From: Streptomyces scabiei 87.22
Lineage (GTDB): Bacteria > Actinomycetota > Actinomycetes > Streptomycetales > Streptomycetaceae
Assembly (NCBI RefSeq): GCF_000091305.1
Contig: NC_013929.1
Location: 1,116,001-1,180,000 of the forward strand
Length of the DNA stretch: 64,000 nt
Direction of reading: 5' to 3'
A model generated the notes under the pieces. It worked only from the letters and a program-made list of their open reading frames with translations, was not told where the DNA came from and did no database searches. Positions within the stretch are counted from its first letter, which is position 1. The number at the start of each line of letters is the position of its first letter. This document shows, piece after piece, positions 41,223 to 59,037 of the stretch. The translations under genes were made by a program, and so were the position numbers.

Positions 41223-42776
41223 TCACGGGAGAGAAGATCCGGCGCCTCGGTCCTGGTCCGGTTCCGCCGAGGGCCGGCGGAACACCGGGGCCTGGTCCGT
41301 ACCCCACGGTCGTACGGCGGCGAGCGCGCGGGAGACCGCGGATTCCAGCGGACCGCTGGTGTCGACCACGACGGCGTCGGGCCAGGGAGGTTCCCGCGCC
41401 GCGAGCGCGTCGGCGACGCCGAGGTCCGCGTCGGACGGCCCGGGGGAGCGCGTGCTCAGGCGTGCCGCGGCGACCTCGTCCGGCACCTGACAGTGCAGGG
41501 CCACCAGATCGGCGCAGGTGCGCTCGGCCACCCTCCCCGCCGCCGCACGCAGCTCCGCGGCGGACCAGGTGGCGTCCAGGACGACGGACTCGCCACGCGA
41601 CAACAGGGCCGCCGCTCGGTCGAGCAGGATGTCGTAGGTCCTGGCCGTCCACTCCGGTGTGTACAGCCCCTCCTCGTACGCGGCCGGCGCAGGGCTCTCC
41701 GGCGGTATGCCCGCGAGCTCCTTGCGGAGGCGGTCGCTGCTGAGCAGGGTGACGCCCAGCCGGTCCGCCAGGGCGCCGGAGAGAGTGGACTTCCCGCTGC
41801 CGGGCAGCCCGCCTACGAGTGTCAGGCCGACAGCGGAGGTACGCAGGTGGCGCAGAGTCGTCGAGACCAGACGCCGTGCCGCCGACCGGACCCCCGGCGC
41901 GCCCTGTTCCGCCTGGATGAGGGACACCTTCGCCCTCACGAACGCGCGATAGGCGACATAGTGGTGCCACAGCGACGGCGGCGCGGGGTCACCCGAGTAC
42001 TCGCCGTACCGGGCGAGGAAACGGGCCGCCGCCGCCGGGGCGCCGAGCTGTTCCAGGTCCATGGCGAGGAACGCGGCGTCGTCGAGCCCGTCGACGTAGC
42101 GCAGGTGGTCGTCGAACTCCAGGCAGTCCAGGACACGGGGACCGTCGTCCAGGCAGAAGATGTCCTCGGCGAGCAGGTCGCCGTGCCCGTCGACCACTCG
42201 CCGCTGCTCGATACGGGAGTCGAACAGCGCCTCGCGGCCGGCGAGATAGCGGCGCACCAGCCGCTGGACCTCGGGCACACCGTCGAAGCCGGAGCCACCC
42301 TCGGTCGTCGCGCGGACCTGCTCGAAGCTCGCCTCCCAGCGTGACGCCAGCGCGTCCCTGGTTCCCTGCTCGTCCACGTCGCGGCCGCGGGGCGCGGTCG
42401 CATGCCAGGCGGCGAGGCGCCGAGCCACGGCACGCAGGACCTCGTCGACATCGGCGCCCGCCCGCACCAGCGCGGACAGGCGACGGCCCGCCGGCATGCG
42501 GCGCATGACCACGAGCGGTTCGGACACCTCGGCGTCAGGGGCGACGACCTCGCCGACGCCCAGGTAGACATCCGGTGCGAAGCGGCGGTTGAGCGCCACT
42601 TCGCGTACGCAGGCCGCCCGTCGTGCCTGCCGGTCGGTGTAGTCCACAAAACCCAGATCGACAGCCTTCTTGACCTTGTAGGCGCGATCACCCGCGAAGA
42701 ACACGATCGCGGTGTGGGTCTCGGCCACCTCCGCGCGTGGCGGCGGCTGCTCCCCCGGGGCTCCGGTTTCACTCAT
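41223..42776 (-). CDS. Bifunctional phosphotransferase/AAA ATP-binding protein (Rv2004c-like)
   Basis: 517 residues from the ATG at 42776, which overlaps the upstream USP stop by 8 bp, so the two are translationally coupled. The N-terminal half is aminoglycoside-phosphotransferase-like (YKVKKAVDLGFVDYTD, VVDGHGDLLAEDIFCLDD with the catalytic Asp region, VLDCLEFDDHLRY). The C-terminal half is a P-loop kinase (VGGLPGSGKSTLSGALADRL; ATWSAAELRAAAG). This domain order is that of M. tuberculosis Rv2004c, a DosR-regulon gene that also sits beside a USP gene (Rv2005c). Substrate unknown. Confidence 0.85.
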   Translation of the reverse strand: MSETGAPGEQPPPRAEVAETHTAIVFFAGDRAYKVKKAVDLGFVDYTDRQARRAACVREVALNRRFAPDVYLGVGEVVAPDAEVSEPLVVMRRMPAGRRLSALVRAGADVDEVLRAVARRLAAWHATAPRGRDVDEQGTRDALASRWEASFEQVRATTEGGSGFDGVPEVQRLVRRYLAGREALFDSRIEQRRVVDGHGDLLAEDIFCLDDGPRVLDCLEFDDHLRYVDGLDDAAFLAMDLEQLGAPAAAARFLARYGEYSGDPAPPSLWHHYVAYRAFVRAKVSLIQAEQGAPGVRSAARRLVSTTLRHLRTSAVGLTLVGGLPGSGKSTLSGALADRLGVTLLSSDRLRKELAGIPPESPAPAAYEEGLYTPEWTARTYDILLDRAAALLSRGESVVLDATWSAAELRAAAGRVAERTCADLVALHCQVPDEVAAARLSTRSPGPSDADLGVADALAAREPPWPDAVVVDTSGPLESAVSRALAAVRPWGTDQAPVFRRPSAEPDQDRGAGSSLP

Positions 42777-43638
42777 GAGGGACGACGGCGACGGGGCAGC
42801 GGCCGTGATGGAGGGCCGCATGAGCCACATGGTCGAGATGGTGCGTCGCGCCGTGCCGGTGCGCCCGTCGTCCGACGACCAGCAGCGCGGCCCCCTTCGC
42901 CGCGTGCACGACGGCCTCGGCGGGGCTCGCGAGATGGATGCTGTCCGCCACCACCACCTGCGGGTACTTCTCGCGCCAGGGCCGCAGGACCCTGCTCAGC
43001 TCCTCCCCCGCCTCCCGCGACAGCTCCTCGCCGACCCCGTGGTCCACGCCCCAGGGCATGCGTGCGTGGAACGGCACGCTGCGCCCATGGACGGCGAGGA
43101 GGGCAGCGCCCCGCGCTGCGGCACTGTGGAACGCGAAGTCGAGCAGTTCGTCGGCGGACCCGCGCAGGTCCATCGCCACGACGATCCTGTCGGCAGGGGC
43201 GGCGTCCGGCTGCTCCTCGGTCGGCTCGGCGCGGACCAGGACCACGGGCCGCTCGGCCCGCGCCACTACCGGCATGCTGACGTCACCCATGAAGTAGCTC
43301 TCGGCGGACGCGAGTCCCCGTGAACCCAGCACCAGCATCTCGGACTCCGAGGCGGCGCGGAGCAGAGCCTCCTGGGCGTCGTCGGCGACGAGACTGCCGA
43401 CGACGGTCAGACCCGGGTGGCGTGCGCCCAGCTCCGTCTGGGCGGTGTGGACGAGGCGCTTGGCCCAGTAGTTCTGGTCGACTTCGGCGGGGGTGTGGGC
43501 CGGCTGCGGTGCCAGCAGCGGCCACGCGTGCAGCAGCCGAAGCGTGAGCCTGCGCCTCTCGGCCTCGTCGGCGGCCCAGCGGGCGGCGGCGAGGCTCGCG
43601 GGTGAACCGTCGAGGCCCACGGTGACGACTGGTTCCAT
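42769..43638 (-). CDS. Tandem universal stress protein (Rv2005c-like)
   Basis: 289 residues from the ATG at 43638. Two USP domains: the first has VVTVGLDGSPASLAAARWAA and LVLGSRGLASAESYFMGDVS, the second DRIVVAMDLRGSADELLDFA and VVGRRAHRHGATHHLDHVAH. The ATP-binding glycine pattern is recognisable in the first domain and less so in the second. USPs bind ATP and modulate growth arrest under stress; the tandem form is typical of the DosR regulon. First gene of a two-gene operon with the Rv2004c-like kinase. A DosR-like palindrome at 43910-43927 lies upstream. Confidence 0.88.
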   Translation of the reverse strand: MEPVVTVGLDGSPASLAAARWAADEAERRRLTLRLLHAWPLLAPQPAHTPAEVDQNYWAKRLVHTAQTELGARHPGLTVVGSLVADDAQEALLRAASESEMLVLGSRGLASAESYFMGDVSMPVVARAERPVVLVRAEPTEEQPDAAPADRIVVAMDLRGSADELLDFAFHSAAARGAALLAVHGRSVPFHARMPWGVDHGVGEELSREAGEELSRVLRPWREKYPQVVVADSIHLASPAEAVVHAAKGAALLVVGRRAHRHGATHHLDHVAHAALHHGRCPVAVVPHE

Positions 43639-44004
43639 GGCGGCGGCCTCCGTCTCGTACGAAGCTGGAGATGCGGGCGGACGAGGCGAACGAGTCCGCC
43701 GACCCACCCGCCCGAACCTGGTCGACACGCCGAGCGGCTGCGGCGCGCCGTCCTTCGAGGAGTACCGCAAACCCCGCGGGCGCGCATGTGGACCGAGGCC
43801 GACGACACGAGAGGCGACACGAAACTCCGGTGTGGGACAGCCCGCCGCCGCGCAGTCGGGTCGGATCCCGCGCAGTCGGATCCCGCGCAGGGCCGGAAGA
43901 CGCCAGGACAGGGACATTCGGCCCTATGACCGGAGACCGCCGGCATCCGAGGGTGGGACCAGGAGGACAGGGAGAACGACCAGCGAGCCGCTGGAGGCCG
44001 ACCC
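43639..44004. other. Divergent regulatory region between two stress operons
   Basis: 366 bp with no gene. It includes two tandem copies of TCGGATCCCGCGCAG-like sequence around 43861-43890 and the DosR-like palindrome described separately. It should hold promoters for the USP/kinase operon and the forward operon. Confidence 0.5.
43910..43927. promoter_or_regulatory. Candidate DosR/OsdR-type operator
   Basis: AGGGACATTCGGCCCTAT is an imperfect palindrome (GGGAC-N4-GGCCC) that closely resembles the mycobacterial DosR box pattern. It lies between two divergent operons of dormancy-type genes. Confidence 0.55.
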
Positions 44005-44604
44005 ATGACCGCACAAGGAACTCCGTACACGCCGGGCCCGCCCTCCCCGCGCGACAGGCTCAAAGGCCCGAACCCCCTGATGCGCCCGTCCGACAGGTTC
44101 GAGTCCTGGCTCCGGCGTTTTCTGCTGCTCGTGCTCGTGCTCGGGCTGCCGGTGGTCGCCTACAGCGCGGGGACGCGGGTGTACGCGTCGTCGGTGCGGA
44201 CCGTACAGGTCCAGAGGGCGGAGCGGCACGAGATCACGGCCCGGCTGGCGGAGGACCTGGAACGCGACAACAACGCGGCGAAACAGCTTGCGCGGGTCAG
44301 CTGGACCGATGAGAACGGCGGCATGCGCACCGGAGAGGCCCTCGTCAAGGCGGGGACGGACAAGGGCGCCTCGGTGCGCGTGTGGCTGGACCGTGACGGA
44401 AACCTCACCGCGCCCCCGATGAACACGCTGAACGCGAAGGCCTCCGGCTGGCTGGCGGGCGGCATGGCGGCCTTCGGCGTGGCCATGGGCTGTTACGCGG
44501 TCCGCTCGGGCACGCGCCTGCTGCTGGACCGCGGGAGGTACGCGCGGTGGGACGCCGACTGGGACAAGGTGGAGCCGCTGTGGTCCGCCCGCTTCCGTCG
44601 CTGA
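44005..44604 (+). CDS. Rv1733c-family membrane protein
   Basis: 199 residues from the ATG at 44005. Two transmembrane helices (FLLLVLVLGLPVVAYSAGT near residues 39-60 and GWLAGGMAAFGVAMGCYAV near 150-170) enclose an outside loop of about 85 residues. This is the Rv1733c topology, a DosR-regulated M. tuberculosis gene of unknown role. It is followed closely by pncB (27 bp) on the same strand, suggesting one operon through DUF1876 and perhaps Hsp20. Confidence 0.85.
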   Translation: MTAQGTPYTPGPPSPRDRLKGPNPLMRPSDRFESWLRRFLLLVLVLGLPVVAYSAGTRVYASSVRTVQVQRAERHEITARLAEDLERDNNAAKQLARVSWTDENGGMRTGEALVKAGTDKGASVRVWLDRDGNLTAPPMNTLNAKASGWLAGGMAAFGVAMGCYAVRSGTRLLLDRGRYARWDADWDKVEPLWSARFRR

Positions 44605-44631
44605 CGAACCGTGCGGGAGGAGGCAGCGGGA

Positions 44632-45987
44632 ATGTCGGACGAGACGACCGTCGACCTGTACGAAGTGACGATGGCCATGGCCTACCTACGGGAGGGGATG
44701 ACCGCCCCGGCGACGTTCAGTCTCTTCGTCCGTGACCTGCCCCCGGAACGCGGCTTCCTGATCACGGCAGGACTGGAATCGGCACTGGACCACCTGACCG
44801 GATTCCATGTCGGCCCCGAGGACGTCGATGCCTTCGCCGCGGCGTTGCACCGGCCGCGCCGGGATCTGGCACCCTTGCTCGGCCTGGAGTTCACCGGCGG
44901 GGTTCGGGCGGTGCCGGAGGGCCGGGTCGTGCTCGCCGGTGAGCCCCTGCTGGAGGTGATGGCCGCGCTGCCCGAGGCACAGCTGGTCGAGACGTACCTG
45001 CTGAATCAGCTCAGCCATCAGACGGCCGTCGCCTCGAAGGCCGCCCGGTGCGTGCTCGCGGCGGCCGGCCGGCCGCTCGTGGACTTCTCCCTGCGGCGCA
45101 CGCACGGTCCGCAGGCCGGGTTCCAGGCGGCCCGGCTCGGTGCGCTGGCCGGATTCGCCGGGACCAGCAACGTGGCGGCGGCCACGGCGCTCGGCATACC
45201 GGCTGTCGGGACGATGGCCCACTCCTTCGTGGAGGCGTTCGCCTCCGAGGAGGACGCCTTCCGTGCCTTCGTCCGCACCCACCCCGGGCCGGTGACCCTG
45301 CTCGTGGACACCTACGACACCGAGGAGGGTGTCCGGGTGGCTGCGGACGTCCTGCGCGACCTGGACCTCGCGGAACAGGCACCCGGCTGCGCCGTGCGAC
45401 TGGACAGCGGCGACCTCGGGGACCTCGCCGTACGGTCACGGTCGATCCTCGACGAAGCGGGCCTGACGGGGGTGCGGATCGTCGCCAGCGGCGGCCTCGA
45501 CGAGTACGCCGTCGACGAGCTGGTGCGCTCCGGGGCGCCGATCGACGTGTACGCCGTCGGCACCCGTGTCGGGGTTGCCGCGGACGCTCCGTATCTGGAT
45601 TCCGCGTACAAACTGGTGGAGTACGAGGGCCGCCCGGTGATGAAACTGTCGTCGGCGAAGGTGACGGCGCCAGGCGCCAAGCAGGTGTTCCGCCGCCCCG
45701 GCTGTGCCGACGTGATCGGCCTCGCCGACGAAAAGCCGACGGACGGCGCCGTGGCGTTGCTGGAGACGGTGATGCGGAACGGGCGGCGTACGGGAAGACC
45801 GTCCACACTCGACGAGTGCCGGGCGAGATGCGCCGACGACATGGCGCGGTTGCCGGCGTCGGCCCGCCGGATCGTAGGGCCGGTCGCGCCGCGTGCCACG
45901 TCCTCGGGGCGACTGAGAGAACTCACCGCTCAGGTCCGGCACCGCGTCGAGAACATGGTCGCGGCACATCGGCCCGCGCCGGGATGA
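44632..45987 (+). CDS. pncB: Nicotinate phosphoribosyltransferase
   Basis: 451 residues from the ATG at 44632 (GGGAGGAGG upstream); a GTG 21 bases earlier is less likely. NAPRTase makes nicotinate mononucleotide from nicotinate and PRPP, the first step of the Preiss-Handler NAD salvage pathway. Motifs: N-terminal TVDLYEVTMAMAYLREGM, the catalytic loop DFSLRRTHGPQAG, NVAAATALGIPAVGTMAHSF, PRPP-binding LLVDTYDTEEGVRVA and RIVASGGLDEYAVDELV. Its place in the set parallels Rv0573c, the second NAPRTase of M. tuberculosis, which belongs to the DosR regulon. Cytoplasmic. Confidence 0.93.
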   Translation: MSDETTVDLYEVTMAMAYLREGMTAPATFSLFVRDLPPERGFLITAGLESALDHLTGFHVGPEDVDAFAAALHRPRRDLAPLLGLEFTGGVRAVPEGRVVLAGEPLLEVMAALPEAQLVETYLLNQLSHQTAVASKAARCVLAAAGRPLVDFSLRRTHGPQAGFQAARLGALAGFAGTSNVAAATALGIPAVGTMAHSFVEAFASEEDAFRAFVRTHPGPVTLLVDTYDTEEGVRVAADVLRDLDLAEQAPGCAVRLDSGDLGDLAVRSRSILDEAGLTGVRIVASGGLDEYAVDELVRSGAPIDVYAVGTRVGVAADAPYLDSAYKLVEYEGRPVMKLSSAKVTAPGAKQVFRRPGCADVIGLADEKPTDGAVALLETVMRNGRRTGRPSTLDECRARCADDMARLPASARRIVGPVAPRATSSGRLRELTAQVRHRVENMVAAHRPAPG

Positions 45988-45998
45988 GGAGGAACGCG

Positions 45999-46286
45999 AT
46001 GGCGCACACAGCGGAATGGAAGGTCCGCCTCCATCTCTTCGAGGACGACGAAGGAGCGACCAAGGCCCATCTGGTGCTGGACACCGGCGTCGCGAGGATC
46101 GTCGGCCGCGGTTCGGCTCACTGTCATCCCACGGACACCGATGTGCCGGAGATCGGCGAGGAGTTGGCGGCGGGCCGCGCCATGAACAACCTCGCCCGGC
46201 AGCTGATCAGGGCCGCCGAGCGTGACATCGAGGGGGTGGGAGCATCACGGCCGAGCAGACCGCAGGCCACCGGATGGCCCTTGTGA
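45999..46286 (+). CDS. DUF1876 protein (Rv1738/hibernation-factor-like)
   Basis: 95 residues from the ATG at 45999 (AGGAGG six bases upstream), 11 bp after pncB. Matches DUF1876 (WKVRLHLFEDDEGATKAHLV, GRGSAHCHPTDTDVPEIGEE, LAAGRAMNNLARQLI). The mycobacterial member Rv1738 is one of the most hypoxia-induced genes and is structurally similar to ribosome hibernation factors. It probably acts on ribosomes in dormancy. Operon position supports this. Confidence 0.88.
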   Translation: MAHTAEWKVRLHLFEDDEGATKAHLVLDTGVARIVGRGSAHCHPTDTDVPEIGEELAAGRAMNNLARQLIRAAERDIEGVGASRPSRPQATGWPL

Positions 46287-46293
46287 AACCCCC

Positions 46294-46308
46294 GGGACGT
46301 GAAGCCCC
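46294..46308. promoter_or_regulatory. Candidate DosR-like half-conserved operator
   Basis: GGGACGTGAAGCCCC has a GGGAC arm and a GCCCC arm spaced as in the other sites, 60 bp upstream of the Hsp20 start. Weaker than the hydrogenase sites. Confidence 0.35.
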
Positions 46309-46368
46309 GTGAAGCCGGAAGGACACACGAACCACGAAGCAGTGAGGGAACCCAGGAGGAAAGCAGCC

Positions 46369-46827
46369 ATGACGCATCCCGCACGACAGGGAACCGCCGC
46401 ATTGCCGGCCGCTCTGCGCGAGCTGGACGACCTTCGTACGCAGGTGGACCAGTTGATGCACGCCGCCTTCGCCGACGGCGGATGGCCTACGTCCGGCTCG
46501 TCCGGACCATGGGCACCGGCGGCCGACATCGAGGACGCCGAGGACGCCTACCTGGTGGAACTGGGGCTGCCCGGCATGGACAAGGAGCAGATCACCGTGG
46601 AGGTCTCCGACGGTGAACTCGACGTCCACGGTGAAGTCCGGCAGAGGGATCGCACGGGTGCGGTGCGCAGGCAGACCCGGCACATCGGGCGGTTCGACTA
46701 CCGCACGACCCTGCCACCGAACACCGAAACCGAACACATCAGCGCCGAACTGGACAACGGCGTACTGACGGTCCGGATCCCCAAGAGCGAGAAGGTCCGG
46801 GCACGGCGCGTCGAAATCACCGGTTGA
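46369..46827 (+). CDS. Hsp20/alpha-crystallin small heat-shock protein
   Basis: 152 residues from the ATG at 46369 (AGGAGGAAAG eight bases upstream), about 80 bp after the DUF1876 gene. The alpha-crystallin core runs from AADIEDAEDAYLVELGLPGM to the conserved GVLTVRIPKSEKVRARRVEI end motif. It prevents aggregation of unfolded proteins without ATP. HspX (Rv2031c) is the marker gene of the DosR regulon; the present gene sits in an equivalent set and a candidate operator lies just upstream. Confidence 0.9.
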   Translation: MTHPARQGTAALPAALRELDDLRTQVDQLMHAAFADGGWPTSGSSGPWAPAADIEDAEDAYLVELGLPGMDKEQITVEVSDGELDVHGEVRQRDRTGAVRRQTRHIGRFDYRTTLPPNTETEHISAELDNGVLTVRIPKSEKVRARRVEITG

Positions 46828-46934
46828 GCCCGTTCTCGCGGGCCGACGGCAGGACACCGTCCGCCCGGATTCGGCGCGGCCACGGCCCCGTTCGTGACCC
46901 GGACACGGAAGACCCTGAGAAGAGGGGCGGCACC

Positions 46935-47858
46935 ATGGAAGCTCGTCTCGGCGACCAGCTCGTCATCGAAACCACCACGTCCGGCGCCACTCGGCGGGAC
47001 GGCGAGATCGTCGGACTCCACCACGAGGACGGAACACCGCCCTACGACGTGCGCTGGTCGGACACGAACGAGGTGACGCTCGTTTTCCCCGGCCCCGACG
47101 CCCACGTCAATCATCTCGCCTCCGCGCCGCCGGGAACGGTCGGCGGCTCCTCCTCACGAGGGGCCGACGGTGGATCCGCCACCGGTGAACGGGCGCCGTC
47201 GTCGGACGCCGTCGGTCCCGGTGACATCGGCCGACGCGTGGTCGCGGAACGACAGCGGCAGGGACTCGGCCGCGAGGAGACGGCCCGACGCGCGCGCATG
47301 TCGCCCGGCTATCTGGCGTATCTGGAGGAGTATCCCGCCGATCCGACGCAGGCGGCCGTCATCAACCTGGCCGACGCACTGGGCACCACCGCCGACGCTC
47401 TGCGCGGAGGGGGCGTCGATCTGCCGCCCGGCCGGGGGCGGGCACTGCGGCATCCGCGGCTGCGGGACCTCGACACGGACGAATGCCACAGGCTGCTGTC
47501 CACGCACGGCGTGGGACGCGTCGCGGTGACGACACCCGACGGCCGTCCGGCGGTCGTCCCGGTCAACTACGAAGCCGTCGACGACACCATCGCCTTCCGC
47601 ACCGCCCCCGACTCGCTGCTCGCCGCGGCAGTCGGAACGGAGGTGGCCTTCGAGGTCGACCATGTGGACGAGCCGCTGAGCCGAGGGTGGAGCGTACTCG
47701 CCGTCGGTCCCGCGAGCGTCGTCACGGAAGCCGACGCCGTGCGTCGTCTCACCGGACAGGCACACACGACGCCATGGGCCGGCGGCGCCCGCGACATGTG
47801 GGTGTCGATCCGGGCCACACGCCTGACCGGTCGCCGGATCACACCGGCGGACGAGTGA
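46935..47858 (+). CDS. DUF1918 - XRE HTH - PPOX fusion protein
   Basis: 307 residues from the ATG at 46935. Three parts: DUF1918 (about 1-62; ARLGDQLVIETTTSGATRRD, YDVRWSDTNEVTLVFPG), an SH3-like small domain also found alone in the DosR regulon (Rv0569); an XRE-type helix-turn-helix (about 95-150; GRRVVAERQRQGLGREETAR); and a flavin-binding pyridoxamine 5'-phosphate oxidase-like split barrel (about 165-300; GRVAVTTPDGRPAVVPVNYE, AVGTEVAFEVDHVDEPLSRG). It could couple flavin or nitro-compound redox sensing to DNA binding. The linker is Ser/Gly-rich. Confidence 0.82.
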   Translation: MEARLGDQLVIETTTSGATRRDGEIVGLHHEDGTPPYDVRWSDTNEVTLVFPGPDAHVNHLASAPPGTVGGSSSRGADGGSATGERAPSSDAVGPGDIGRRVVAERQRQGLGREETARRARMSPGYLAYLEEYPADPTQAAVINLADALGTTADALRGGGVDLPPGRGRALRHPRLRDLDTDECHRLLSTHGVGRVAVTTPDGRPAVVPVNYEAVDDTIAFRTAPDSLLAAAVGTEVAFEVDHVDEPLSRGWSVLAVGPASVVTEADAVRRLTGQAHTTPWAGGARDMWVSIRATRLTGRRITPADE

Positions 47859-47890
47859 GGCGGCGCTCCGGGCGGACGGTGGGCGGCGGG

Positions 47891-47924
47891 CCACGTCCAC
47901 CGTCCGGACGGGCGGTGGACGTGG
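47891..47924. terminator. Hairpin between convergent genes
   Basis: A perfect 12-bp inverted repeat (CCACGTCCACCG, loop of 10, complementary arm) lies between the PPOX fusion gene and the CBS gene and can serve both strands. Confidence 0.8.
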
Positions 47925-47995
47925 GGGCTGTCCACCGTCCGGCCGCACCGCACCCAGATCGCCGGGGCGCCGCCTCCTCCTCGTCGGTCCCCCGG

Positions 47996-48676
47996 TCAGC
48001 CGTCCTTCGCCGGGCCGGGGGCGTCGTCCAGTTCGCCGAGCCTGGCGTGCACGTCCACCACGCCCTCCACGGCGCGGACCAGACGCTCGGCGACCCAGCC
48101 CAGCGTGGGGTCCCGGACCCTCCCGCGCAGGGTGACGACCCCGTCCTGCACCGTCACATGGATCGTGTGACTGAGTGCGGGGAAGAGGTAGGCCACCACC
48201 GTGCGGCGCACCTCCTCCTCGATGTCCTCGTCCGACCGCAGGAAGACCTTCAACAGGTCACCACGGCTCACGACGCCGAGCAACCGTCCCTCGTCGTCGA
48301 TCACCGGCAGGCGCTTGACCCGGTTCACGGCCATGATCCGAGCAGCCTGCGCCAGTGTGACGTCCGGGTGCGCCACGATCGCGGGCGCGCTCATGACCTC
48401 CTCCGCGGTCACCGCGCCCGCCTTGGCGAGGTCGGACATCCGCCGGAGCTGCTCCGCACGGGTGAGGTCGCGGTCCCGGAACTCCTCCTTGGGCAGCAGG
48501 TCGGCCTCGGAGACCACACCCACCACACGGCCGTCGCCCTCCACCACCGGCACGGCACTGACCTGCCGGTCCGTCATGGCCCGCACGATGTCCTTGAACG
48601 GCGTGTCACGCCGAACGGCCACCGCCGGGAGGCTCATCACGTCGCTGACGATGTGGGGGGTGTCGGGCATGGCCAC
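47996..48676 (-). CDS. CBS-pair and BON domain protein
   Basis: 226 residues from a GTG at 48676 (an ATG two codons later is equally possible). Two CBS motifs (VSDVMSLPAVAVRRDTPFKD ... VVGVVSEADLLP and VMSAPAIVAHPDVTLAQAAR ... LLGVVSRGDLLKVFL) form a Bateman module that binds adenosyl ligands; the C-terminal BON domain (IHVTVQDGVVTLRGRVRD) may touch lipid or other proteins. It is a close paralogue of the gene at 55396-56022. CBS proteins such as Rv2626c (Hrp1) are strongly induced by hypoxia. Divergent from a tandem USP gene. Confidence 0.87.
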   Translation of the reverse strand: MAMPDTPHIVSDVMSLPAVAVRRDTPFKDIVRAMTDRQVSAVPVVEGDGRVVGVVSEADLLPKEEFRDRDLTRAEQLRRMSDLAKAGAVTAEEVMSAPAIVAHPDVTLAQAARIMAVNRVKRLPVIDDEGRLLGVVSRGDLLKVFLRSDEDIEEEVRRTVVAYLFPALSHTIHVTVQDGVVTLRGRVRDPTLGWVAERLVRAVEGVVDVHARLGELDDAPGPAKDG

Positions 48677-48877
48677 GGGTCCTTGGGCGCGGAGGATACG
48701 GGATCACGTGCGGTCCAGCGGCCCGGGCGGGCGTTCGACCGCACGTCTCCAGCATCACCGGGTCATGAGCCCACGCAACCCGGACCCGCTCGGCGACCGG
48801 TCCGTGTCGCGACGGTCCACCAGTGGTGCGACGGTGTCTTCAAGGAGTGCCTGCAGCAGGCGGACGGGAAGGCGGAG

Positions 48878-49759
48878 ATGGCGATGGAACTCCCGCTGGT
48901 CGTGGGCGTCGACGGATCCGACTCCAGCCTGCTGGCGGTCGACTGGGCCGCGGATGCGGCCGCGCGGCACGGACTGCCGTTGCGCCTGGTGCACGCGTCC
49001 CGCTGGGAACGCTACGAACGGACCGTGCCGTCCTTCTCCACCGGTCGTCCCGCCGGGGAGGTGATGGCGGAGCACATCGTCGCCTCCTGCGCGGAGCGTG
49101 CCAGGCTCCGCGCCCCCGGGGTGAGGGTGACGGGCGAGACAGTGCCCGACGATGCCGTGTCGGCCCTGCTGCGGACGGCGAGCGAGGCATTCGCCCTGGT
49201 GGTGGGAGAACGTGGGAGGGGCGAGGTGGCCGGGCTGCTGCTCGGCTCGGTGAGTCTCGCGGTGGCGGCCCGCGCCTTGTGCCCGGTCGTCGTGGTCCGT
49301 GGCGCGGAGCCTGCTGCCAGGGGGTCCCACGGCCCGGTCGTGGTGGGCCTCGGCGACGAGCCCGAACGCACGGGCGCCGTACGGTTCGCCGTCCGTGAGG
49401 CCGAGTCGCGCGGCTGTGCCCTCACCGCGGTACGGGCCTGGCGCAGTCCGGACCATGAGCACATGGACCGTCCCCTGCCGGCGGACCGCACGGATCAGGG
49501 ACACCGCGAGAGGGCCTCGGCGGACCTCGACGAGGCGCTGCGCCAAACCGTGCGGGAACACCCGGACGTCGAGATCCGACCCCGGCCGGTGGAGGGCCCG
49601 GCACACCGTGTCCTGCTGGACGCCTCGGTGGGCGCCGACCTGATGGTCGTCGGAGCCGTGCGCAACCAGAGCCGTCTCGGTCTCCAGCTCGGGCGGGTCG
49701 CCCATGTCCTGCTGCATCACTGCGCGTGTCCGGTCGCCGTGGTCCCGGAACTGGCCTGA
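48878..49759 (+). CDS. Tandem universal stress protein
   Basis: 293 residues from the ATG at 48878. Two USP domains, each with a recognisable ATP-binding loop: VVGERGRGEVAGLLLGSVSL in the first and VVGAVRNQSRLGLQLGRVAH in the second. N-terminus VVGVDGSDSSLLAVDWAADA is typical. It is only moderately similar to the USP at 42769-43638. Likely part of the low-oxygen stress set and placed just before the hydrogenase genes. Confidence 0.88.
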   Translation: MAMELPLVVGVDGSDSSLLAVDWAADAAARHGLPLRLVHASRWERYERTVPSFSTGRPAGEVMAEHIVASCAERARLRAPGVRVTGETVPDDAVSALLRTASEAFALVVGERGRGEVAGLLLGSVSLAVAARALCPVVVVRGAEPAARGSHGPVVVGLGDEPERTGAVRFAVREAESRGCALTAVRAWRSPDHEHMDRPLPADRTDQGHRERASADLDEALRQTVREHPDVEIRPRPVEGPAHRVLLDASVGADLMVVGAVRNQSRLGLQLGRVAHVLLHHCACPVAVVPELA

Positions 49760-49910
49760 CGGCGTGGGGACCCGGTGTGCCGTCGGCCTCCGCCGTCGTC
49801 CTCCCGCTTCGAGTCAGAGTGGATCGGGGCACGACGGCCACCGGGCAGCTCACGTGTTGGACGGCGGCATGGGTGACCGGGCCGGGACGCGGGGAACCGC
49901 TCACGGCCCC

Positions 49911-49926
49911 GGACCGTTCGGCCCCT
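49911..49926. promoter_or_regulatory. Candidate DosR/OsdR-type operator upstream of the maturation protease
   Basis: GGACCGTTCGGCCCCT fits the GG(G/A)-CC-N4-GGCCC pattern and lies 36 bp upstream of the protease start. Confidence 0.45.
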
Positions 49927-49962
49927 CGCTGAGCCCGGGCGTCCCTACGAACGGTGCGGACC

Positions 49963-50454
49963 ATGACAAAGGGCAGGCGGATCAGCGTCATCGGTGTCGG
50001 GAACGAGTTCCGGCGCGACGACGGCGTGGGCTGGGCGGCGGTCGCCAGGCTGCGGGAGCGGGCGGAGGACCTTCCGCTGCCGTCGGACACCGTGCTCGCC
50101 ACCTGCGACGGTGACCCGGGCCGGCTGATCGGCCTCTGGGAGGACGCGGGGCTCGCCGTGGTGGTGGACGCCGCCCACGCTCATCCGGGAAGCCCCGGGC
50201 GGGTGCACCGTCTCGAACTCGGCGCCGGTCACCCGGCCCGGTCGGGTGCCACCAGCTCGCACGGGCTGGGCCTGGGCGAGGCCGTCGAGCTTGCCCGCCT
50301 ACTGGGACGGCTGCCGGGGCGTCTGGTCGTGTACGCGGTGGAGGGAGCCGACGGATCCATCGGCACCGGGCTCTCCCCCGCCGTCACCGCCTCGCTGGGG
50401 CCCCTCGTCGACACGGTCCGGAACGAGATCACGCGGTACCGCGCGCGTCGGTGA
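49963..50454 (+). CDS. [NiFe]-hydrogenase maturation protease
   Basis: 163 residues from the ATG at 49963 (a GTG nine bases earlier is an alternative). HycI/HybD-family features: SVIGVGNEFRRDDGVGWAAV at the N-terminus with the Ni-binding Glu/Asp (NEFRRDD), VVVDAAHAHPGSPGRVHRLE with the second acidic residue, and a conserved His in SSHGLGLGEAV. This endopeptidase removes the C-terminal tail of the hydrogenase large subunit after nickel insertion. It fits the hydrogenase operon that begins 400 bp downstream. Hyp accessory genes are not in the window. Confidence 0.88.
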   Translation: MTKGRRISVIGVGNEFRRDDGVGWAAVARLRERAEDLPLPSDTVLATCDGDPGRLIGLWEDAGLAVVVDAAHAHPGSPGRVHRLELGAGHPARSGATSSHGLGLGEAVELARLLGRLPGRLVVYAVEGADGSIGTGLSPAVTASLGPLVDTVRNEITRYRARR

Positions 50455-50740
50455 GGAGGCTGTCGTGAACGCACGACACACCGATCGCGCCATCGCCGGC
50501 AGCGGCACGGCCGCCCCGGACCAACGGCACACAGCGGGACACCGAGGTACGCGGAGGCGCAGGCACACCGGACGCCGGGTGCTGCGCCGACCGTGTCGAA
50601 CCGTGACTTCGCGACAAGGCCCTGACGTGCCCTCGCCCGTCCGGTGCGGTGTCATGGCAGTGGTCGCGCGTTGCTCCATGCCTCTTCGGGGCGCTGCCCG
50701 GCCGCGGCAAGTGTCGCCCGGGGCCGCATCGCGGCTCCGC

Positions 50741-50765
50741 GCACCGGGCCCGATCGGCCCGGTGC
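50741..50765. promoter_or_regulatory. Palindrome 1 upstream of the hydrogenase operon
   Basis: GCACCGGGCC and GGCCCGGTGC form a 10-bp inverted repeat around CGATC; the core GGGCCCGATCGGCCC matches the pattern of the other sites. It immediately precedes a second palindrome, as tandem DosR boxes do. The remaining 50455-50740 of this 401-bp gap holds no gene that I can support. Confidence 0.55.
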
Positions 50766-50783
50766 AGGGGCCGTACGGCCCCT
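50766..50783. promoter_or_regulatory. Palindrome 2 upstream of the hydrogenase operon
   Basis: AGGGGCCGTACGGCCCCT is a perfect 18-bp palindrome adjoining palindrome 1 and 72 bp upstream of the hydB-like start. Together they look like a double operator for a DosR/OsdR-type response regulator. Confidence 0.6.
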
Positions 50784-50855
50784 GCCATGGTGCCCGGCCC
50801 CGGCCGGACGCTGGAAGCGAAGGGCAGGCAACCGCCTCGACGGAGGAGGAACACG

Positions 50856-52010
50856 ATGACCCCAACGGCTCCACCGGCGATTATGGACCGCGACGGCCTC
50901 GACGCCCTGGTGTCGGTACTGGTGGCCGACGGGCGCACCGTCGTCGGGCCGACGGTCCGTGACGGCGCGGTCGTGCTCGCGGAGCTGGGCTCGGCGGCCG
51001 AGCTCCCCTACGGCTGGGGGGTCGAGCTGGAGGCCGGCCGCTACCGTCTCGTCCGGCGCGAGGACGGGGCCGCGTTCGCGCACAGCGCGGGCCCGCAGTC
51101 GTGGAAGAACTACCTCCATCCACCGCGGGAGAAGCTGTGGAGCGCCGACCGGACGGCAGACGGCGAGCCGGTGTTCACCGCGCACCCGCCCGAGGCACCG
51201 GCGTACGCCTTTCTAGGCGTCCGGCCCTGTGACCTGCGGGCCATCGCGATCCAGGACCGGGTCCTGACCGGCGGGCGATACGCGAACGACGGCTACGGCA
51301 AGCGTCGCGGACGGGCGCTGCTGATCGCGGCCGAGTGCACGGAACCGGGCGCCACCTGCTTCTGTGTGTCGACGGGCGGCGGGCCGGCTGCCGATCCCGG
51401 GTACGACCTCGCGCTGACGGAGGTCGTGGACGGGGACGGCCACCGCTTCCTCGTCCGGGTGGGCAGCGACGACGGCGCCCTCCTGCTGGACCGGGTCCCG
51501 CACCGCACGGCCGACGAGAGCACGCGGGACACCGCCCGCGCCTCGGTGGACGCGGCGCGTGAGCGCATGGGCAGGTCCCTGCCCCCGGTCGACCTGCGGA
51601 CGCTGTTGGGTGCGAGCCTGGAGGCCGAGCGTTGGGACGACGTCGCCGCCCGCTGTCTGACCTGCGGAAACTGCACGATGGTGTGCCCCACCTGCTTCTG
51701 CGTGACCACCGAGGAGGTCACCGACCTGACCGGTGACCACACCGAGCGCTGGCAGCGCTGGGACTCCTGCTTCGACCTGGACTTCTCCCATCTGCACGAG
51801 GGGCCGGTGCGGGCCTCGGGGCGCTCGCGCTACCGGCAGTGGCTCACCCACAAGCTGGGCACGTGGCACGACCAGTTCGGCACCTCCGGATGCGTGGGCT
51901 GCGGGCGGTGCATCGCCTGGTGCCCGACCGGCATCGACATCACGGAGGAGGTCGCCGCGCTGGACGCGGAACTCACCGCCGACCGAAGCGCGCCCCCTGC
52001 GGAGGCATGA
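50856..52010 (+). CDS. hydB: Group 3b hydrogenase beta subunit, 4Fe-4S protein (HydB-like)
   Basis: 384 residues from the ATG at 50856 (GGAGGAGGA upstream). Two [4Fe-4S] ferredoxin motifs near the C-terminus: CLTCGNCTMVCPTCFC and CVGCGRCIAWCPTGID. The upstream part (YAFLGVRPCDLRAIAIQDRV, ECTEPGATCFCVSTGGG) is typical of the sulfhydrogenase beta subunit/anaerobic sulfite reductase A family. It passes electrons between the hydrogenase dimer and the flavin subunit. The operon order (B, then G, D, A) matches that of archaeal hydBGDA apart from the cNMP gene inserted after B. Confidence 0.88.
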   Translation: MTPTAPPAIMDRDGLDALVSVLVADGRTVVGPTVRDGAVVLAELGSAAELPYGWGVELEAGRYRLVRREDGAAFAHSAGPQSWKNYLHPPREKLWSADRTADGEPVFTAHPPEAPAYAFLGVRPCDLRAIAIQDRVLTGGRYANDGYGKRRGRALLIAAECTEPGATCFCVSTGGGPAADPGYDLALTEVVDGDGHRFLVRVGSDDGALLLDRVPHRTADESTRDTARASVDAARERMGRSLPPVDLRTLLGASLEAERWDDVAARCLTCGNCTMVCPTCFCVTTEEVTDLTGDHTERWQRWDSCFDLDFSHLHEGPVRASGRSRYRQWLTHKLGTWHDQFGTSGCVGCGRCIAWCPTGIDITEEVAALDAELTADRSAPPAEA

Positions 52011-52013
52011 GCG

Positions 52014-52496
52014 ATGAGCCCCTTCCCTGCCCTGCGCCCCTCTCCCGCCCTGCGCCTCGCCGACGCGCTGCCGCCCGCGCACCGCGACCGGCTGCTGCGC
52101 GTCGCCCGCGAGGTCGATCTGCGGCCGGGCACCCGGCTGTTCGAGGAGGGCGGACGTGCCGACCGCTTCTGGGTCGTGCGGGACGGCCGGGTCGCCCTGG
52201 ACCTGCACATGCCCGGTCGCCGCACGCCGGTGATCGAGACCCTGGGCGCCGGCGACCTGGTGGGCTGGTCGTGGCTGTACGAGCCGTACGTCTGGCAGCT
52301 GGGTGCCGGGGCCGTCACCCAGGTGGCGGCCCACGAGTTCGACGCCGTGGCCGTGCGAAGGATGTGCGAGGAGGACGCCGAGTTCGGCCGGGCCGTCGGG
52401 CTCTGGGTGGGCCGGGTGCTGTCCCACCGGCTCGGCGCGGCCCGCACCCGCCTGGTGGACCTGTACGGCCACCCGCACGGCGGGGGTGCGCGATGA
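52014..52496 (+). CDS. Cyclic-nucleotide-binding-domain protein without HTH, hydrogenase operon
   Basis: 160 residues, starting 3 bp after the hydB stop and overlapping the next gene by 4 bp, so it is firmly part of the operon. It is a cNMP-binding jelly roll (LRPGTRLFEEGGRADRFWVV, RVALDLHMPGRRTPVIETLG, AGDLVGWSWLYEPYVWQLGA). There is no winged-helix DNA-binding domain after it, unlike Crp/Fnr regulators. It may sense a nucleotide or redox signal and act directly on the hydrogenase. The same small protein accompanies some actinobacterial group 3b hydrogenases. Confidence 0.82.
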   Translation: MSPFPALRPSPALRLADALPPAHRDRLLRVAREVDLRPGTRLFEEGGRADRFWVVRDGRVALDLHMPGRRTPVIETLGAGDLVGWSWLYEPYVWQLGAGAVTQVAAHEFDAVAVRRMCEEDAEFGRAVGLWVGRVLSHRLGAARTRLVDLYGHPHGGGAR

Positions 52497-53299
52497 CCAC
52501 CGTGCCCGTTCCGTACCGCGTGGTCGACCGGCGGCGGGAGACCCCGGAGACGGTCACGCTGCGACTGGAGCCGGCCGGCGAGGTGCTGGCGGACTTCGCT
52601 CCGGGCCAGTTCGCGATGGTGCACTGCTTCGGCCGCGGCGAGATCCCCCTGTCGGTCAGCTCCGTGCAGGGCACGGGCGGGCTCGCGCACACCGTCCGGG
52701 CCGTGGGCGCCGTCTCCGACGGGCTGTGCGCGGCCCGTACGGGTGACGTGCTCGGGCTGCGCGGACCGTACGGCACCGGCTGGGAGGTCGGGCAGGCGGG
52801 CGGCCGGGACGTCCTGGTGGTCGCGGGCGGCATCGGCCTCGCCCCGTTGCGCCCGCTGGTCCTGAGCGTGCTCGCCGAGCCCGAGGCGTTCGGCCGGCTC
52901 AGTGTGCTCGTGGGGGCCCGCACCCCGAGCGACCTGATCGGCCGGAAGGAGACCGAGGGCTGGCCGACGGCGTTCACGGGGATGACGGTCGACCGGCCCG
53001 GCCCCGGCTGGCACGGCGACGTCGGCGTGGTCACCCAGTTGCTGGGCCGGGCCCCGTTCGACCCCGGCACCGGCTGGGCGTTCGTCTGCGGTCCCGAGCC
53101 GATGATCCGCGCCACCGCCCGGGAGCTGGTCCATCGCGGGGTGCCCGGCGAGCGGATCCGGGTGTCGCTGGAGCGGAACATGCGCTGCGCGACCGGGACG
53201 TGCGGGCACTGCCAGCTGGGTCAGCTGCTGGTGTGCCGGGACGGTCCGGTCGTGAGCTGGGACCGGGCCGAAGCCCTGCTGTCCGTGAGGGAGTTGTGA
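52493..53299 (+). CDS. hydG: Group 3b hydrogenase gamma subunit, FAD/NAD(P)-binding (HydG-like)
   Basis: 268 residues from the ATG at 52493, which overlaps the upstream stop (ATGA). Ferredoxin-NADP reductase fold: flavin site [23 protein letters not shown](P) site [19 protein letters not shown], and a C-terminal [2Fe-2S] set C-x4-C-x2-C...C in [18 protein letters not shown]. It exchanges electrons with NAD(P)H. With HydB it makes the diaphorase half of the enzyme. Confidence 0.88.
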
Positions 53300-53300
53300 G

Positions 53301-54056
53301 ATGGCCGTGCCGAAGCTCGCCGTGTTCAAACTGGCTTCCTGCGACGGTTGTCAGCTGACCCTGCTGGACTGCGAGGACGAACTCCTCGCGCTGGCGGGGC
53401 AGGTGGACATCGCCCACTTCCTGGAGGCCTCCAGCGCGGTCGGGGACGGACCGTACGACCTGGCACTGGTCGAGGGTTCGGTCACCACCGCCGAGGACGC
53501 CGGGCGGGTCCGGGAGATCCGGTCCGCCTCGCGTCGTCTGGTCACGATCGGCGCGTGCGCGACCGCGGGCGGCATCCAGGCACTGCGCAACTACGCGGAC
53601 GTCGACGAGTACCGGCGGGTCGTCTACGCCCACCCCGAGTACGTCTCGACCCTGGCCACGTCCACACCGGTGTCGGCCCACGTGGACGTCGACTTCGAAC
53701 TGCGCGGCTGCCCGATCGACAAGCGGCAGCTCATCGAGGTGATCACCGCATATCTCGCCGGACGCCGGCCGGACGTCCCGAACCACAGTGTGTGCTTCGA
53801 GTGCAAGCGGCGCGGCACGGTCTGCGTCACCGTCGCCCACGGCACGCCCTGCCTCGGACCGGTCACCCACGCCGGCTGCGGGGCCCTGTGCCCCGCGTAC
53901 GGGCGGGGCTGTTACGGCTGTTTCGGGCCCTCGGGCACGGTGAACCTGCCCGCGCTGATCCCCGTGCTGCGACGGGACGGCCTCGACGACGCCGCCACCG
54001 ATCGATTGCTGCACACCTTCAACGCCCTCGCTTTCGACGAGGAGGTGCCGAAGTGA
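53301..54056 (+). CDS. hydD: [NiFe]-hydrogenase small subunit (HydD-like)
   Basis: 251 residues from the ATG at 53301, 1 bp after hydG. The cysteines for three Fe-S clusters are visible: [12 protein letters not shown] near residue 13, [25 protein letters not shown], and [14 protein letters not shown] with [12 protein letters not shown]. There is no Tat signal, so the enzyme is cytoplasmic, as expected for group 3b. Followed by the large subunit with a 4-bp overlap (GTGA). Confidence 0.92.
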
Positions 54057-55384
54057 CCCATCGCGGCTCCCGAGTCCTGCATGTCGGTTCGCTCGCCCGG
54101 GTGGAGGGTGAGGGCGCGCTGCGGCTGAGCGTCCACGACGGTATGGTGCGCGAGGCCCGGCTCGACATCTACGAACCGCCCCGTTTCTTCGAGGCGTTCC
54201 TGCGAGGCCGGGCGTACACCGAGCCGCCCGACATCACCGCCCGGGTGTGCGGAATCTGTCCGGTGGCGTATCAGATGAGCGCGTGCGCGGCCGTCGAGGA
54301 CGCCTGCGGCGTCACCGTCGACCAGGGGATCCGTGAGCTGCGCAGGCTGCTGTACTGCGGCGAGTGGATCGAGAGCCACACCCTGCACGTCTACCTGCTG
54401 CACGCGCCGGACTTCCTGGGCCGGGCGAGCGCGATCGAGCTGGCACGCACGCACCGGGCGGAGGTCGAGCGGGGGCTGAGGCTGAAGAAGGCGGGCAACT
54501 CCGTGATGGAGCTGCTGGGCGGACGGGCCGTCCATCCCGTCAACGTACGGCTCGGGGGTTTCCACCGCGCCCCGACCCGTTCCGAACTGCGGCCGCTGGC
54601 TGAAGAGTTGAGGAAGGCACTGGACGACGCGCTGGAGACCGTGCGCTGGGTGGCCGGGTTCGAGTTCCCCGAGGCCCGGGTCGACGCCGACCTGTTCGCG
54701 CTGGCCGCCCCCGACACGTATGCCGTCGAGGGCGGCACTCCGACCGTGCTGCGCTCCGACGGTACGCTCCGGTCCTTCCCGGTGCGGGACTTCACCGGCC
54801 ACGTCACCGAGACCCAGGTGCCGCACTCCACGGCGTTGCACGCCCGGTTGGACGGGCGACGCCATCTCACCGGTGCCCTGGCCAGGTTCGCGGTCGGCGG
54901 GCGCCTGCTGTCACCGGTGGCGCTGGAGGCCGCGCGTGCGGCGGGGCTGGGTGATCCGCGCGAGGGCGCGGTGTGCCGCAACCCTTTCCGGACCATCCTG
55001 GTTCGGGCCGTGGAGGTCGTGTACGCCGTGGAGGAGGCGCTGCGGATCATCGAGGCGTACGAGCCGCCGCCGCGCCCGTACACCGAGGTCCCGCCGGCCG
55101 CCGGCGTCGGCCACGGGGCGACCGAGGCCCCGCGCGGACTGCTCTATCACCGCTACACGATCGACGCCGACGGCATTCTGACCGATGCCCGGCTCGTTCC
55201 GCCCACCGCGCAGAACCAGGGCGCGATCGAGGACGACCTGCTCCGTGTCGCCCAGGACGCGATCACCGGCGGCGACCCGGACGACGCGGAGCTGACGGCC
55301 CTGTGCGAGCGGGCGATCCGCAACCACGACCCGTGCATTTCCTGCTCCGCACACTTCCTCGACCTGACCGTCGTCCGCACCTGA
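54053..55384 (+). CDS. hydA: [NiFe]-hydrogenase large (catalytic) subunit (HydA-like)
   Basis: 443 residues from a GTG at 54053. Nickel-binding cysteines: L1 motif [16 protein letters not shown] near residue 64 and L2 motif [13 protein letters not shown] at the C-terminus, followed by a short tail for the maturation protease. The L1 His seen in most uptake hydrogenases is Tyr here, as in group 3b sequences I know. The bifunctional group 3b enzyme couples H2 to NADP(H) and is oxygen-tolerant to a degree. In Mycobacterium smegmatis the equivalent Hyh is induced by hypoxia under DosR and disposes of reductant as H2. Confidence 0.92.
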
Positions 55385-55395
55385 AGGAGGCCATG

Positions 55396-56022
55396 ATGGC
55401 TGATTCTCCGTACACCGTGAGCGACGTCATGACACACACCGTCGTCGCTGTGGGGCGTGACGCGCCCTTCAAGGAGATCGTCCAGCTGTTCGACCAGTGG
55501 AAGGTCAGCGCTCTGCCCGTACTGGAGGGCGAGGGCCGGGTCGTCGGCGTGGTGTCGGAGGCCGATCTGCTGCACAAGGAGGAGTTCCGGGACGCCGACG
55601 AGCGCCAGGGCGACTTCGCGGACCGCCTCAAGGCGGGCGCGGTCACCGCCGGGGAGCTGATGAACGCCCCCGCCGTCTCCGTCCACCCTGACGCCTCCCT
55701 GGCCGAGGCGGCCCGCATCATGGCGCGCCGCAAGGTCAAGCGGCTCCCGGTCGTCGACCGCGTCGGCATGCTCCAGGGTGTGGTCAGCCGCGGGGACCTG
55801 CTCAAGGTGTTCCTCCGCCCCGACGAGGAGCTGGCCGAGGAGATACGCGGCTCCGTCCTCACCTCGCTCCCGTCCACGGAGGCGATCACTGTCGCCGTCG
55901 CGGAGGGCGTGGTGACGTTGGGCGGTTCGCTCCCCGACCGCGGTCTCGTACCCGTCCTGGCCCGGGCCGCACGGGCCGTGGAGGGGGTCGTCGACATCCG
56001 TCTCGACCTCTCGCATCGCTGA
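55396..56022 (+). CDS. CBS-pair and BON domain protein
   Basis: 208 residues from the ATG at 55396 (GGAGG five bases upstream; an ATG three bases earlier is too close). Two CBS motifs (VSDVMTHTVVAVGRDAPFKE ... VVGVVSEADLLHKEEFRDAD; VHPDASLAEAARIMARRKVK ... LQGVVSRGDLLKVFLR) and a BON domain (ITVAVAEGVVTLGGSLPDRG). A paralogue of the 47996-48676 gene. It begins 11 bp after hydA, so it is the last gene of the hydrogenase operon and may sense adenylate state. Confidence 0.88.
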   Translation: MADSPYTVSDVMTHTVVAVGRDAPFKEIVQLFDQWKVSALPVLEGEGRVVGVVSEADLLHKEEFRDADERQGDFADRLKAGAVTAGELMNAPAVSVHPDASLAEAARIMARRKVKRLPVVDRVGMLQGVVSRGDLLKVFLRPDEELAEEIRGSVLTSLPSTEAITVAVAEGVVTLGGSLPDRGLVPVLARAARAVEGVVDIRLDLSHR

Positions 56023-56051
56023 CCGTGCCGCCCGGTGCGACGGCCCGCCCG

Positions 56052-56720: not shown

Positions 56721-56763
56721 GGTGAGCGCTCACTTCCTCTCTCGGTCTCTCGGCGTTGACGAG

Positions 56764-56814
56764 CTTACGCCGTAAGTGCTGTACTTACGGCGTAAGCAAT
56801 ACTTACACCGTAAG
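56764..56814. promoter_or_regulatory. Three TetR-type operators
   Basis: CTTACGCCGTAAG (56764-56776), CTTACGGCGTAAG (56784-56796) and CTTACACCGTAAG (56802-56814) are near-perfect palindromes, starts 20 and 18 bases apart, in the intergenic space between the tetR gene and the oxidoreductase. They cover the likely promoters of both genes. Confidence 0.85.
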
Positions 56815-56838
56815 TACGGAGAGGTGGGAGATCCGACG

Positions 56839-57867: not shown

Positions 57868-58112
57868 CGATCCCACTCGACACCCGGCCCCACGGCACAA
57901 CCACCGCCCAGGGACATCCTCACGGCCGCCCACGACTGCGCGTGCACCGAGAGTCGCGGAGAAGAGCGCGTTGCGGCGCACGTCTGAGCGGCCGGCACCA
58001 CCCCGGTCAGCTCCGCCCGGGCGGACTCCCCACGTGGTCCTCCACCGGCGCGGTGCCGTCCTGACCGGCGCAGGCCTCACGGGAGAACATCACCCGCCTT
58101 GCGGTCGGGGCA

Positions 58113-59037
<925 letters not shown>

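Follow-up and report, generated by a model that had tools for sequence, protein, structure and literature searches.

Two described systems lie closest to the locus examined here. In Streptomyces coelicolor, the regulon of the OsdKR sensor-regulator pair has been assigned to the SCO0167-SCO0219 region, and a consensus for the OsdR site, AGGGCCGATCGGCCCT, has been published (PMC5069765); that paper, in the part of its main text available to us, nowhere uses the word hydrogenase. In Mycobacterium smegmatis, DosST/DosR controls a third hydrogenase, Hyh (PMC13098282, PMC8125079, accessible portions), which the former describes as mediating fermentation in hypoxia; a hydrogenase under DosR control thus has a published precedent. 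We analysed a stretch of 64,000 nucleotides of Streptomyces scabiei 87.22 (the window; positions 1,116,001-1,180,000 of the 10,148,695-bp chromosome), in whose coordinates features are given unless marked chromosomal. A previous sequence-only reading had recognized in it a dormancy island with a group 3b hydrogenase and had named the related OsdKR system of Streptomyces. Our analysis makes it fairly probable that this dormancy island is of the OsdR/DosR type and that its [NiFe] hydrogenase operon, preceded by tandem OsdR-like boxes, is switched on via OsdK-OsdR and serves to discharge surplus NAD(P)H electrons as H2 without oxygen.

Gene families were assigned by Pfam/NCBIfam profile scans of the window open reading frames (ORFs); the wrong frames of the gene caller, in several window ORFs and in L011 15959-19918, were swapped by hand where a domain match showed the frame. 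The operon had been described as a complete hydBGDA set with its protease; the four subunits and HycI are indeed present, but a 160-aa CRP-like gene at 52014-52496 had been overlooked. HydB, HydG, HydD and HydA matched the Hyd and Shy models, all four far under the NCBIfam equivalog cut-offs, and the small, Fe-S and flavin/NAD(P) subunits are all encoded in one operon with HydA. HydB retains two CxxCxxCxxxC motifs, and both CxxC nickel-ligand motifs (L1/L2) of HydA are intact, L2 reading DPCISCSAH. Among solved chains, HydA ranked nearest to sulfhydrogenase 1 and cytosolic NiFe-hydrogenase, followed by methyl-viologen-reducing and then NAD-reducing enzymes; with the group labels that we take these chains to carry, its sequence places it closest to group 3b over 3a, 3c and 3d. 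The nearest database protein to HydA, at 98%, carries the name Streptomyces scabiei. Sulfhydrogenase 1 of Pyrococcus (9nez, 9e15), presumably a group 3b enzyme, shares the four-subunit plan, to which the Streptomyces operon adds the CRP-like gene. The second CBS-BON gene probably belongs to the operon, since it begins 8 bp after hydA.

The OsdR-like boxes were located with a position weight matrix (PWM) derived from the 26 S. coelicolor sites in Table 1 of PMC5069765. A matrix was needed because the consensus, even with three mismatches, does not pick up the best hydB box, which is degenerate at its centre: box 2 (50767) departs from the consensus at four positions, at both ends and in the centre. 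The two boxes ahead of hydB are spaced 21 bp, or about two helical turns. Between 41,001 and 56,100, five boxes reached PWM 12 or more against 0.32 expected, a number that none of 200 shuffles attained; four are intergenic, and the fifth, at 41072 (PWM 12.4), overlaps the start of a short ORF. Left of the island, one such box occurred in 41 kb (0.63 expected), and none was found right of 56,100 in the window. The mycobacterial-style pattern GGGAC-N4-GTCCC gave 61 matches over the window against 115 expected; it is uninformative because the DNA is GC-rich (66-75% in 4-kb steps), and it was therefore dropped in favour of the published OsdR consensus and the matrix. A pattern modelled on one box variant had no match in the genome. 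With the published consensus, the window contains four sites with three mismatches (1.15 expected), and sites with up to three mismatches number four in L011 (0.43 expected) and six in L012 (0.28 expected), the two pieces that cover chromosomal 1,180,001-1,215,000. Genome-wide, all seven sites with at most one mismatch fall in two islands, at 471-486 kb (three sites) and 1,184-1,212 kb (four sites); at two mismatches there are 14 places, eight of them in the islands, compared with four places for a reversed control pattern.

The sequence-only reading had placed the sensor-regulator pair outside the window and had staked itself on the genome encoding a DosR/OsdR-type regulator. An OsdR orthologue and its kinase were found at chromosomal 476-479 kb, and on this point the reading stands. 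The orthologue scores 522 bits; among the candidates in the genome (150 scored of 191), the runner-up reaches 165. It retains the KTVKN helix, whose residues we take to contact DNA, and the kinase GAF preserves the HPPM motif, whose histidine presumably holds haem. A one-mismatch OsdR box stands ahead of osdR, at 479,015. As far as the available text of PMC5069765 goes, the S. coelicolor regulon shares with this genome the regulator pair, the box type and the box of osdR itself, together with universal stress protein (Usp), zinc-type alcohol dehydrogenase, pyruvate phosphate dikinase (PPDK) and Crp-like genes with predicted boxes. It differs in that osdRK of S. coelicolor lie within the gathered cluster, whereas here they are 0.69 Mb away from the hydrogenase island and an orphan OsdK paralogue occurs in the continuation of that island.

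This continuation begins at chromosomal 1,180,960, where the same gene kinds resume, and extends to about 1,212,000; the scanned ORFs of the intervening 56,025-64,000 belong to other families. Judged by its gene content, the stretch in the window is thus the left part of a larger OsdR/DosR-type dormancy island. The region 1,180,001-1,215,000 encodes a CBS-BON protein, an NDP-forming-type acyl-CoA synthetase that carries a GNAT domain, GH65, glyceraldehyde-3-phosphate dehydrogenase (GAPDH), a Usp piece, a nitroreductase piece, alcohol dehydrogenases, an Rv1733c paralogue, PPDK, two further Usp proteins, and pyruvate formate-lyase with a radical-SAM protein that is likely the activase. No regulator gene was seen adjoining the orphan OsdK paralogue; a one-mismatch OsdR box lies between this gene and the divergent PPDK gene. 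Of the 24 Usp matches in the genome (domains or pieces), 17 lie in the two islands, 11 in this island with its continuation and six in the osdRK island. Together the islands make up about 0.8% of the chromosome, and the clustering therefore exceeds chance.

The maturation genes had likewise been noted as absent from the window. A search for hypA, hypB, hypD and hypE located all four at chromosomal 9.717-9.723 Mb (hypA at 84.8 bits, cut-off 88.1), beside the large subunit gene of a second [NiFe] hydrogenase. Since the single HypD match in the genome, at 9,720,754, sits there with hypA, hypB and hypE, the island enzyme presumably shares these factors.

What the DNA itself shows is the set of genes, the osdRK locus, the boxes with their conservation, and the further course of the island. 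Because the tandem OsdR-like boxes lie within a dormancy island, we predict that the hydrogenase operon is switched by OsdK-OsdR. In the proposed mechanism, OsdK would sense oxygen by haem bound at the conserved HPPM histidine, and phosphorylated OsdR would bind the boxes, with a pair of dimers spaced by 21 bp at hydB. Induced when oxygen runs out, the hydrogenase would belong to a fermentation package and work mainly toward H2 evolution. The Hyp factors from 9.72 Mb would mature the enzyme, HycI would trim HydA, and the CRP-like protein may be a co-produced non-cAMP sensor or an accessory enzyme subunit. It is also conceivable, although unlikely, that the hydrogenase is under OsdR control and acts mainly in uptake, transferring electrons from H2 to NADP+ to aid survival instead of serving as an electron dump. 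Group 3b enzymes are bidirectional, and that this genome handles H2 is evident from its second [NiFe] hydrogenase and the Hyp genes at 9.71-9.72 Mb. However, the island continuation encodes fermentation-type enzymes that would need an electron outlet, and M. smegmatis Hyh is described, in the accessible part of PMC13098282, as mediating hypoxic fermentation; both argue for H2 evolution.

Conservation of the boxes was assessed in the best 80 of at least 570 confirmed related loci, a set in which close kin are over-represented; promoter counts refer to 78 of these, L064 (no HydB) and L085 (too short) being left out. Within 250 bp upstream of hydB, a box of PWM 12 or more occurred in 24/78 loci, compared with 2.5% of 3641 windows drawn at random from these loci and 0.5% of shuffled sequences. 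Under a looser rule (PWM 10 or more, or an exact dyad), 38/78 loci had a box, compared with 5.1% of 1097 windows. In the HydA tree, the window falls in a well-supported clade of 24 rows, and all 23 scored members are boxed by the looser rule, 22 of them at -70 to -145 from hydB; outside this clade, 15/55 loci are boxed. The box label changes nine times on the tree, against 26 for shuffled labels. When 16 promoters hand-picked from box-bearing loci (the window and 15 relatives) were aligned, most of the invariant columns fell in the arms of box 2. In raw counts, a Usp relative was found in the flanks of 56/80 loci and a CBS-BON relative in 51/80.

Several observations weigh against OsdR control of an H2-evolving enzyme. 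Under the looser rule, 40/78 related hydB promoters have no box; within the clade only 17/23 loci reach PWM 12, and the site of L035 lies at -246. All five Mycobacterium-labelled loci are boxless, though the Streptomyces matrix may miss mycobacterial boxes. The boxes of the window are three to four mismatches off the printed consensus, the divergent CBS-BON/Usp promoter at 48677-48877 has none (best PWM score -0.7), and, according to the available text of PMC5069765, the sites behind the matrix are its authors' predictions, gel shifts having been run on only some of them. For both the NADP(H) partner and the direction in which H2 is turned over, the only guide is analogy with relatives. We also considered the boxes as a mark of dormancy-adjacent hydrogenases, and this was unsupported (Mann-Whitney p 0.48, for the number of dormancy families nearby; Fisher p 0.11).

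The boxless promoters and the lack of a tie between boxes and dormancy neighbours would both be expected if the genes were co-located by history and the hydrogenase were no OsdR target, the boxes being due to chance or serving another LuxR-type regulator; such regulators are numerous, with 81 GerE matches in the genome (150 of 173 candidates scored). We regard this explanation as clearly improbable, since the boxes were found by the S. coelicolor OsdR-site matrix alone, far above shuffles, recur in every scored clade member, and supply with their arms most of the invariant columns in the alignment of the 16 chosen box-bearing promoters.

With M. smegmatis, the case for OsdR control shares a dormancy regulator of the same family and a hydrogenase acting in hypoxia (PMC13098282, PMC8125079, in the parts available). 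The five Mycobacterium-labelled loci, M. smegmatis not among them, differ in having no CRP-like gene, with a hydB-hydG gap of -28 to +8 bp, and in having no or one dormancy family in their flanks (tblastn with Streptomyces queries, which diverged members may escape).

The CRP-like protein encoded between hydB and hydG is the least understood part of the system. Its structure model (pLDDT 87.5) has its best fold matches in GlxR/CRP, and the chain stops after the C-helix; in this predicted structure the 160-aa protein has no C-terminal helix-turn-helix (HTH). It thus shares the sensor fold and C-helix of CRP/GlxR regulators but lacks their DNA-binding domain, and tryptophan replaces both cAMP contacts. 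In the alignment with GlxR, the positions of the contact Glu and Arg, which we take to bind cAMP in GlxR/CRP, are Trp85 (97%) and Trp94 (100%) in 70 sequences, comprising operon copies and a few stray ones, in which the motif GWSW...W.LGA is also largely conserved. Neither the contact Glu/Arg nor the HTH of a cAMP-responsive CRP is therefore present, and, although the protein resembles GlxR and mycobacterial CRP in fold and sequence, it is very improbable that it is an ordinary cAMP sensor coupling the hydrogenase to carbon status.

The CRP-like gene lies between hydB and hydG in 60 of the 79 related loci in which both genes are readable; at this position it is missing from the five mycobacterial loci and from some Streptomyces. 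The genome has just one further close copy, at chromosomal 487.8 kb, and an OsdR-like box (PWM 14.5) begins 83 bp before its ORF. Because the Crp-like S. coelicolor genes SCO0168 and SCO0517 are among the predicted OsdR targets in the available text of PMC5069765, the family may belong to the OsdR regulon generally. No paper on this CRP-like operon member was found in a single search of the open-licence literature. We tentatively suggest, as a possibility short of probable, that the protein is a new hydrogenase subunit: after loss of the HTH and the cAMP pocket, its Trp-lined pocket would receive another signal, and the protein would dock on the Fe-S/flavin module and gate H2 release. OsdR would then deliver the enzyme together with its gate, and the 488-kb copy would do likewise for another dormancy enzyme.

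All families named in the sequence-only reading were recovered at their positions by the scans of 41223-56022 (Table). The kinase at the left end is likened by us to Rv2004c; its ORF overlaps its neighbour, so the real start may be slightly downstream. The true start of the adjacent tandem Usp is probably near 43640, because its first Usp domain begins there. The Rv2632c-like protein belongs, as we understand it, to the old DUF1876 family, that of Rv1738. For the DUF1918/HTH/pyridoxamine-oxidase fusion, a tblastn match to some part was found in 23/80 related loci.

Gene spacing and strand suggest about six transcription units. Usp and kinase leftward, and Rv1733c, NAPRTase, DUF1876, Hsp20 and the DUF1918 fusion rightward, form two units that share one divergent region; CBS-BON leftward and Usp rightward form two more, divergent at 48.7 kb; the remaining two are HycI alone and hydB, CRP-like, hydG, hydD, hydA and CBS-BON. 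The view of the island as one regulated unit is largely supported: boxes are present in three of the four island promoter regions longer than 200 bp, but there are several transcription units, one boxless divergent promoter and a wider extent than had been supposed. Likewise, the genes had been called gathered here and scattered in Mycobacterium; they are gathered, but this is not peculiar to the present genome, for the OsdR cluster of S. coelicolor is gathered too (PMC5069765, available text).

Table. Features of the dormancy island and of related chromosomal loci; positions are window coordinates unless marked chromosomal or given within a locus (L).
Feature	Position	Strand	Evidence or remark
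P-loop kinase (AAA_33), Rv2004c-like	41223..42830	-	Pfam AAA_33 E 3e-26
Tandem universal stress protein, Rv2005c-like (longest ORF)	42769..43917	-	Usp E 2.7e-33, two stretches
OsdR-like box AGGGACATTCGGCCCT, between divergent Usp and Rv1733c genes	43910..43925	.	PWM 16.9; 3 mismatches to consensus
Rv1733c-family membrane protein	44005..44604	+	NF050032 178 bits, cut-off 80
Nicotinate phosphoribosyltransferase (NAPRTase)	44611..45987	+	NAPRTase_N E 1.3e-21
Rv2632c-like/DUF1876 protein	45999..46286	+	PF08962 E 1e-27
Hsp20 / alpha-crystallin	46369..46827	+	PF00011 E 3.3e-21
DUF1918 - HTH - pyridoxamine 5'-phosphate oxidase fusion	46824..47858	+	three Pfam domains
CBS-CBS-BON protein 1	47996..48676	-	CBS E 7e-31, BON E 1e-12
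Second tandem universal stress protein	48878..49759	+	Usp E 2.9e-42, two stretches
Weaker OsdR-like box upstream of protease gene	49910..49925	.	PWM 12.7
HycI-type hydrogenase maturation protease	49963..50454	+	PF01750 25.4 bits, cut-off 23
OsdR-like box 1 of hydB tandem pair, -110 from ATG	50746..50761	.	PWM 13.4; 3 mismatches to consensus
OsdR-like box 2 of hydB tandem pair, -89 to -74 from ATG	50767..50782	.	PWM 17.5
HydB, Fe-S subunit	50856..52010	+	Fer4_22 E 2e-31; sulfhyd_HydB E 4e-37
HTH-less CRP-like sensor domain protein ('cNBD'), 160 aa, between hydB and hydG	52014..52496	+	cNMP_binding E 6e-10
HydG, FAD/NAD(P)-binding subunit	52493..53299	+	NAD_binding_1, DHODB_Fe-S; HydG/ShyC models
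HydD, small subunit	53301..54056	+	Oxidored_q6 E 1e-22; ShyD E 6e-51
HydA, [NiFe] large subunit	54053..55384	+	NiFeSe_Hases; best solved match Sulfhydrogenase 1 alpha E 4e-70
CBS-CBS-BON protein 2	55393..56022	+	CBS E 8e-31, BON E 7e-7
OsdR orthologue, LuxR-type	chromosomal 478,228-478,980 (L013 8226-8981)		best solved relative DevR/DosR 3c3w, E 1e-79
GAF-GAF-HisKA_3-HATPase kinase (OsdK) beside osdR	L013 6350-8083		GAF matches DosT/DevS chains, E 6e-49 and weaker
Second CRP-like copy, Trp-pocket type	chromosomal 487,829-488,293 (L104:2829-3293)		64%; adjoins osdRK island
Orphan OsdK-like GAF-GAF kinase	chromosomal 1,195,959-1,197,704 (L011 15959-17704)	-	78% identical to OsdK (445/574 positions)
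Pyruvate formate-lyase (PFL-like + glycine radical) and radical-SAM activase-like gene	L012:6148-9380	-	in OsdR island of presumed aerobe
Second [NiFe] hydrogenase large subunit beside hyp genes	chromosomal 9,711,059-9,712,615

Other features were seen in the window. Adjoining the island, 58240-61604 encodes a CsoR-type repressor, a TauE/SafE exporter and a metallo-beta-lactamase-rhodanese fusion, and resembles a persulfide-response module. An arabinan-degradation cluster at 28373-35089 contains a GH127 beta-arabinofuranosidase with a ricin-type lectin and two AbfB-domain proteins. At 20099-22063 a large protein-arginine deiminase domain is encoded (PAD, E 4.5e-113), of a family familiar mainly from vertebrates, and at 14382-15299 a transposase (HTH_21, rve), presumably of IS3 type, lies in a lower-GC stretch at 12-20 kb.

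No paper tying OsdR to a hydrogenase in Streptomyces was found in the open-licence literature. Streptomycetes are regarded as obligate aerobes, yet in the island and its continuation OsdR-like boxes are interspersed with genes for a soluble hydrogenase, pyruvate formate-lyase, PPDK and alcohol dehydrogenases, which could amount to a kit for fermentation with H2 as its outlet and a single oxygen-sensing pair in control. A study of Streptomyces lividans, in the part available, describes a rise of the OsdR regulon along with a surplus of NADPH; the route of its re-oxidation is an open point there, NuoF of 'NADH hydrogenase' being named as a candidate (PMC6302529). In species that have the enzyme, a NAD(P)H-linked hydrogenase under OsdR control would offer one route of this kind, and the conserved boxes would extend the mycobacterial link between DosR and hydrogenase to Streptomyces.

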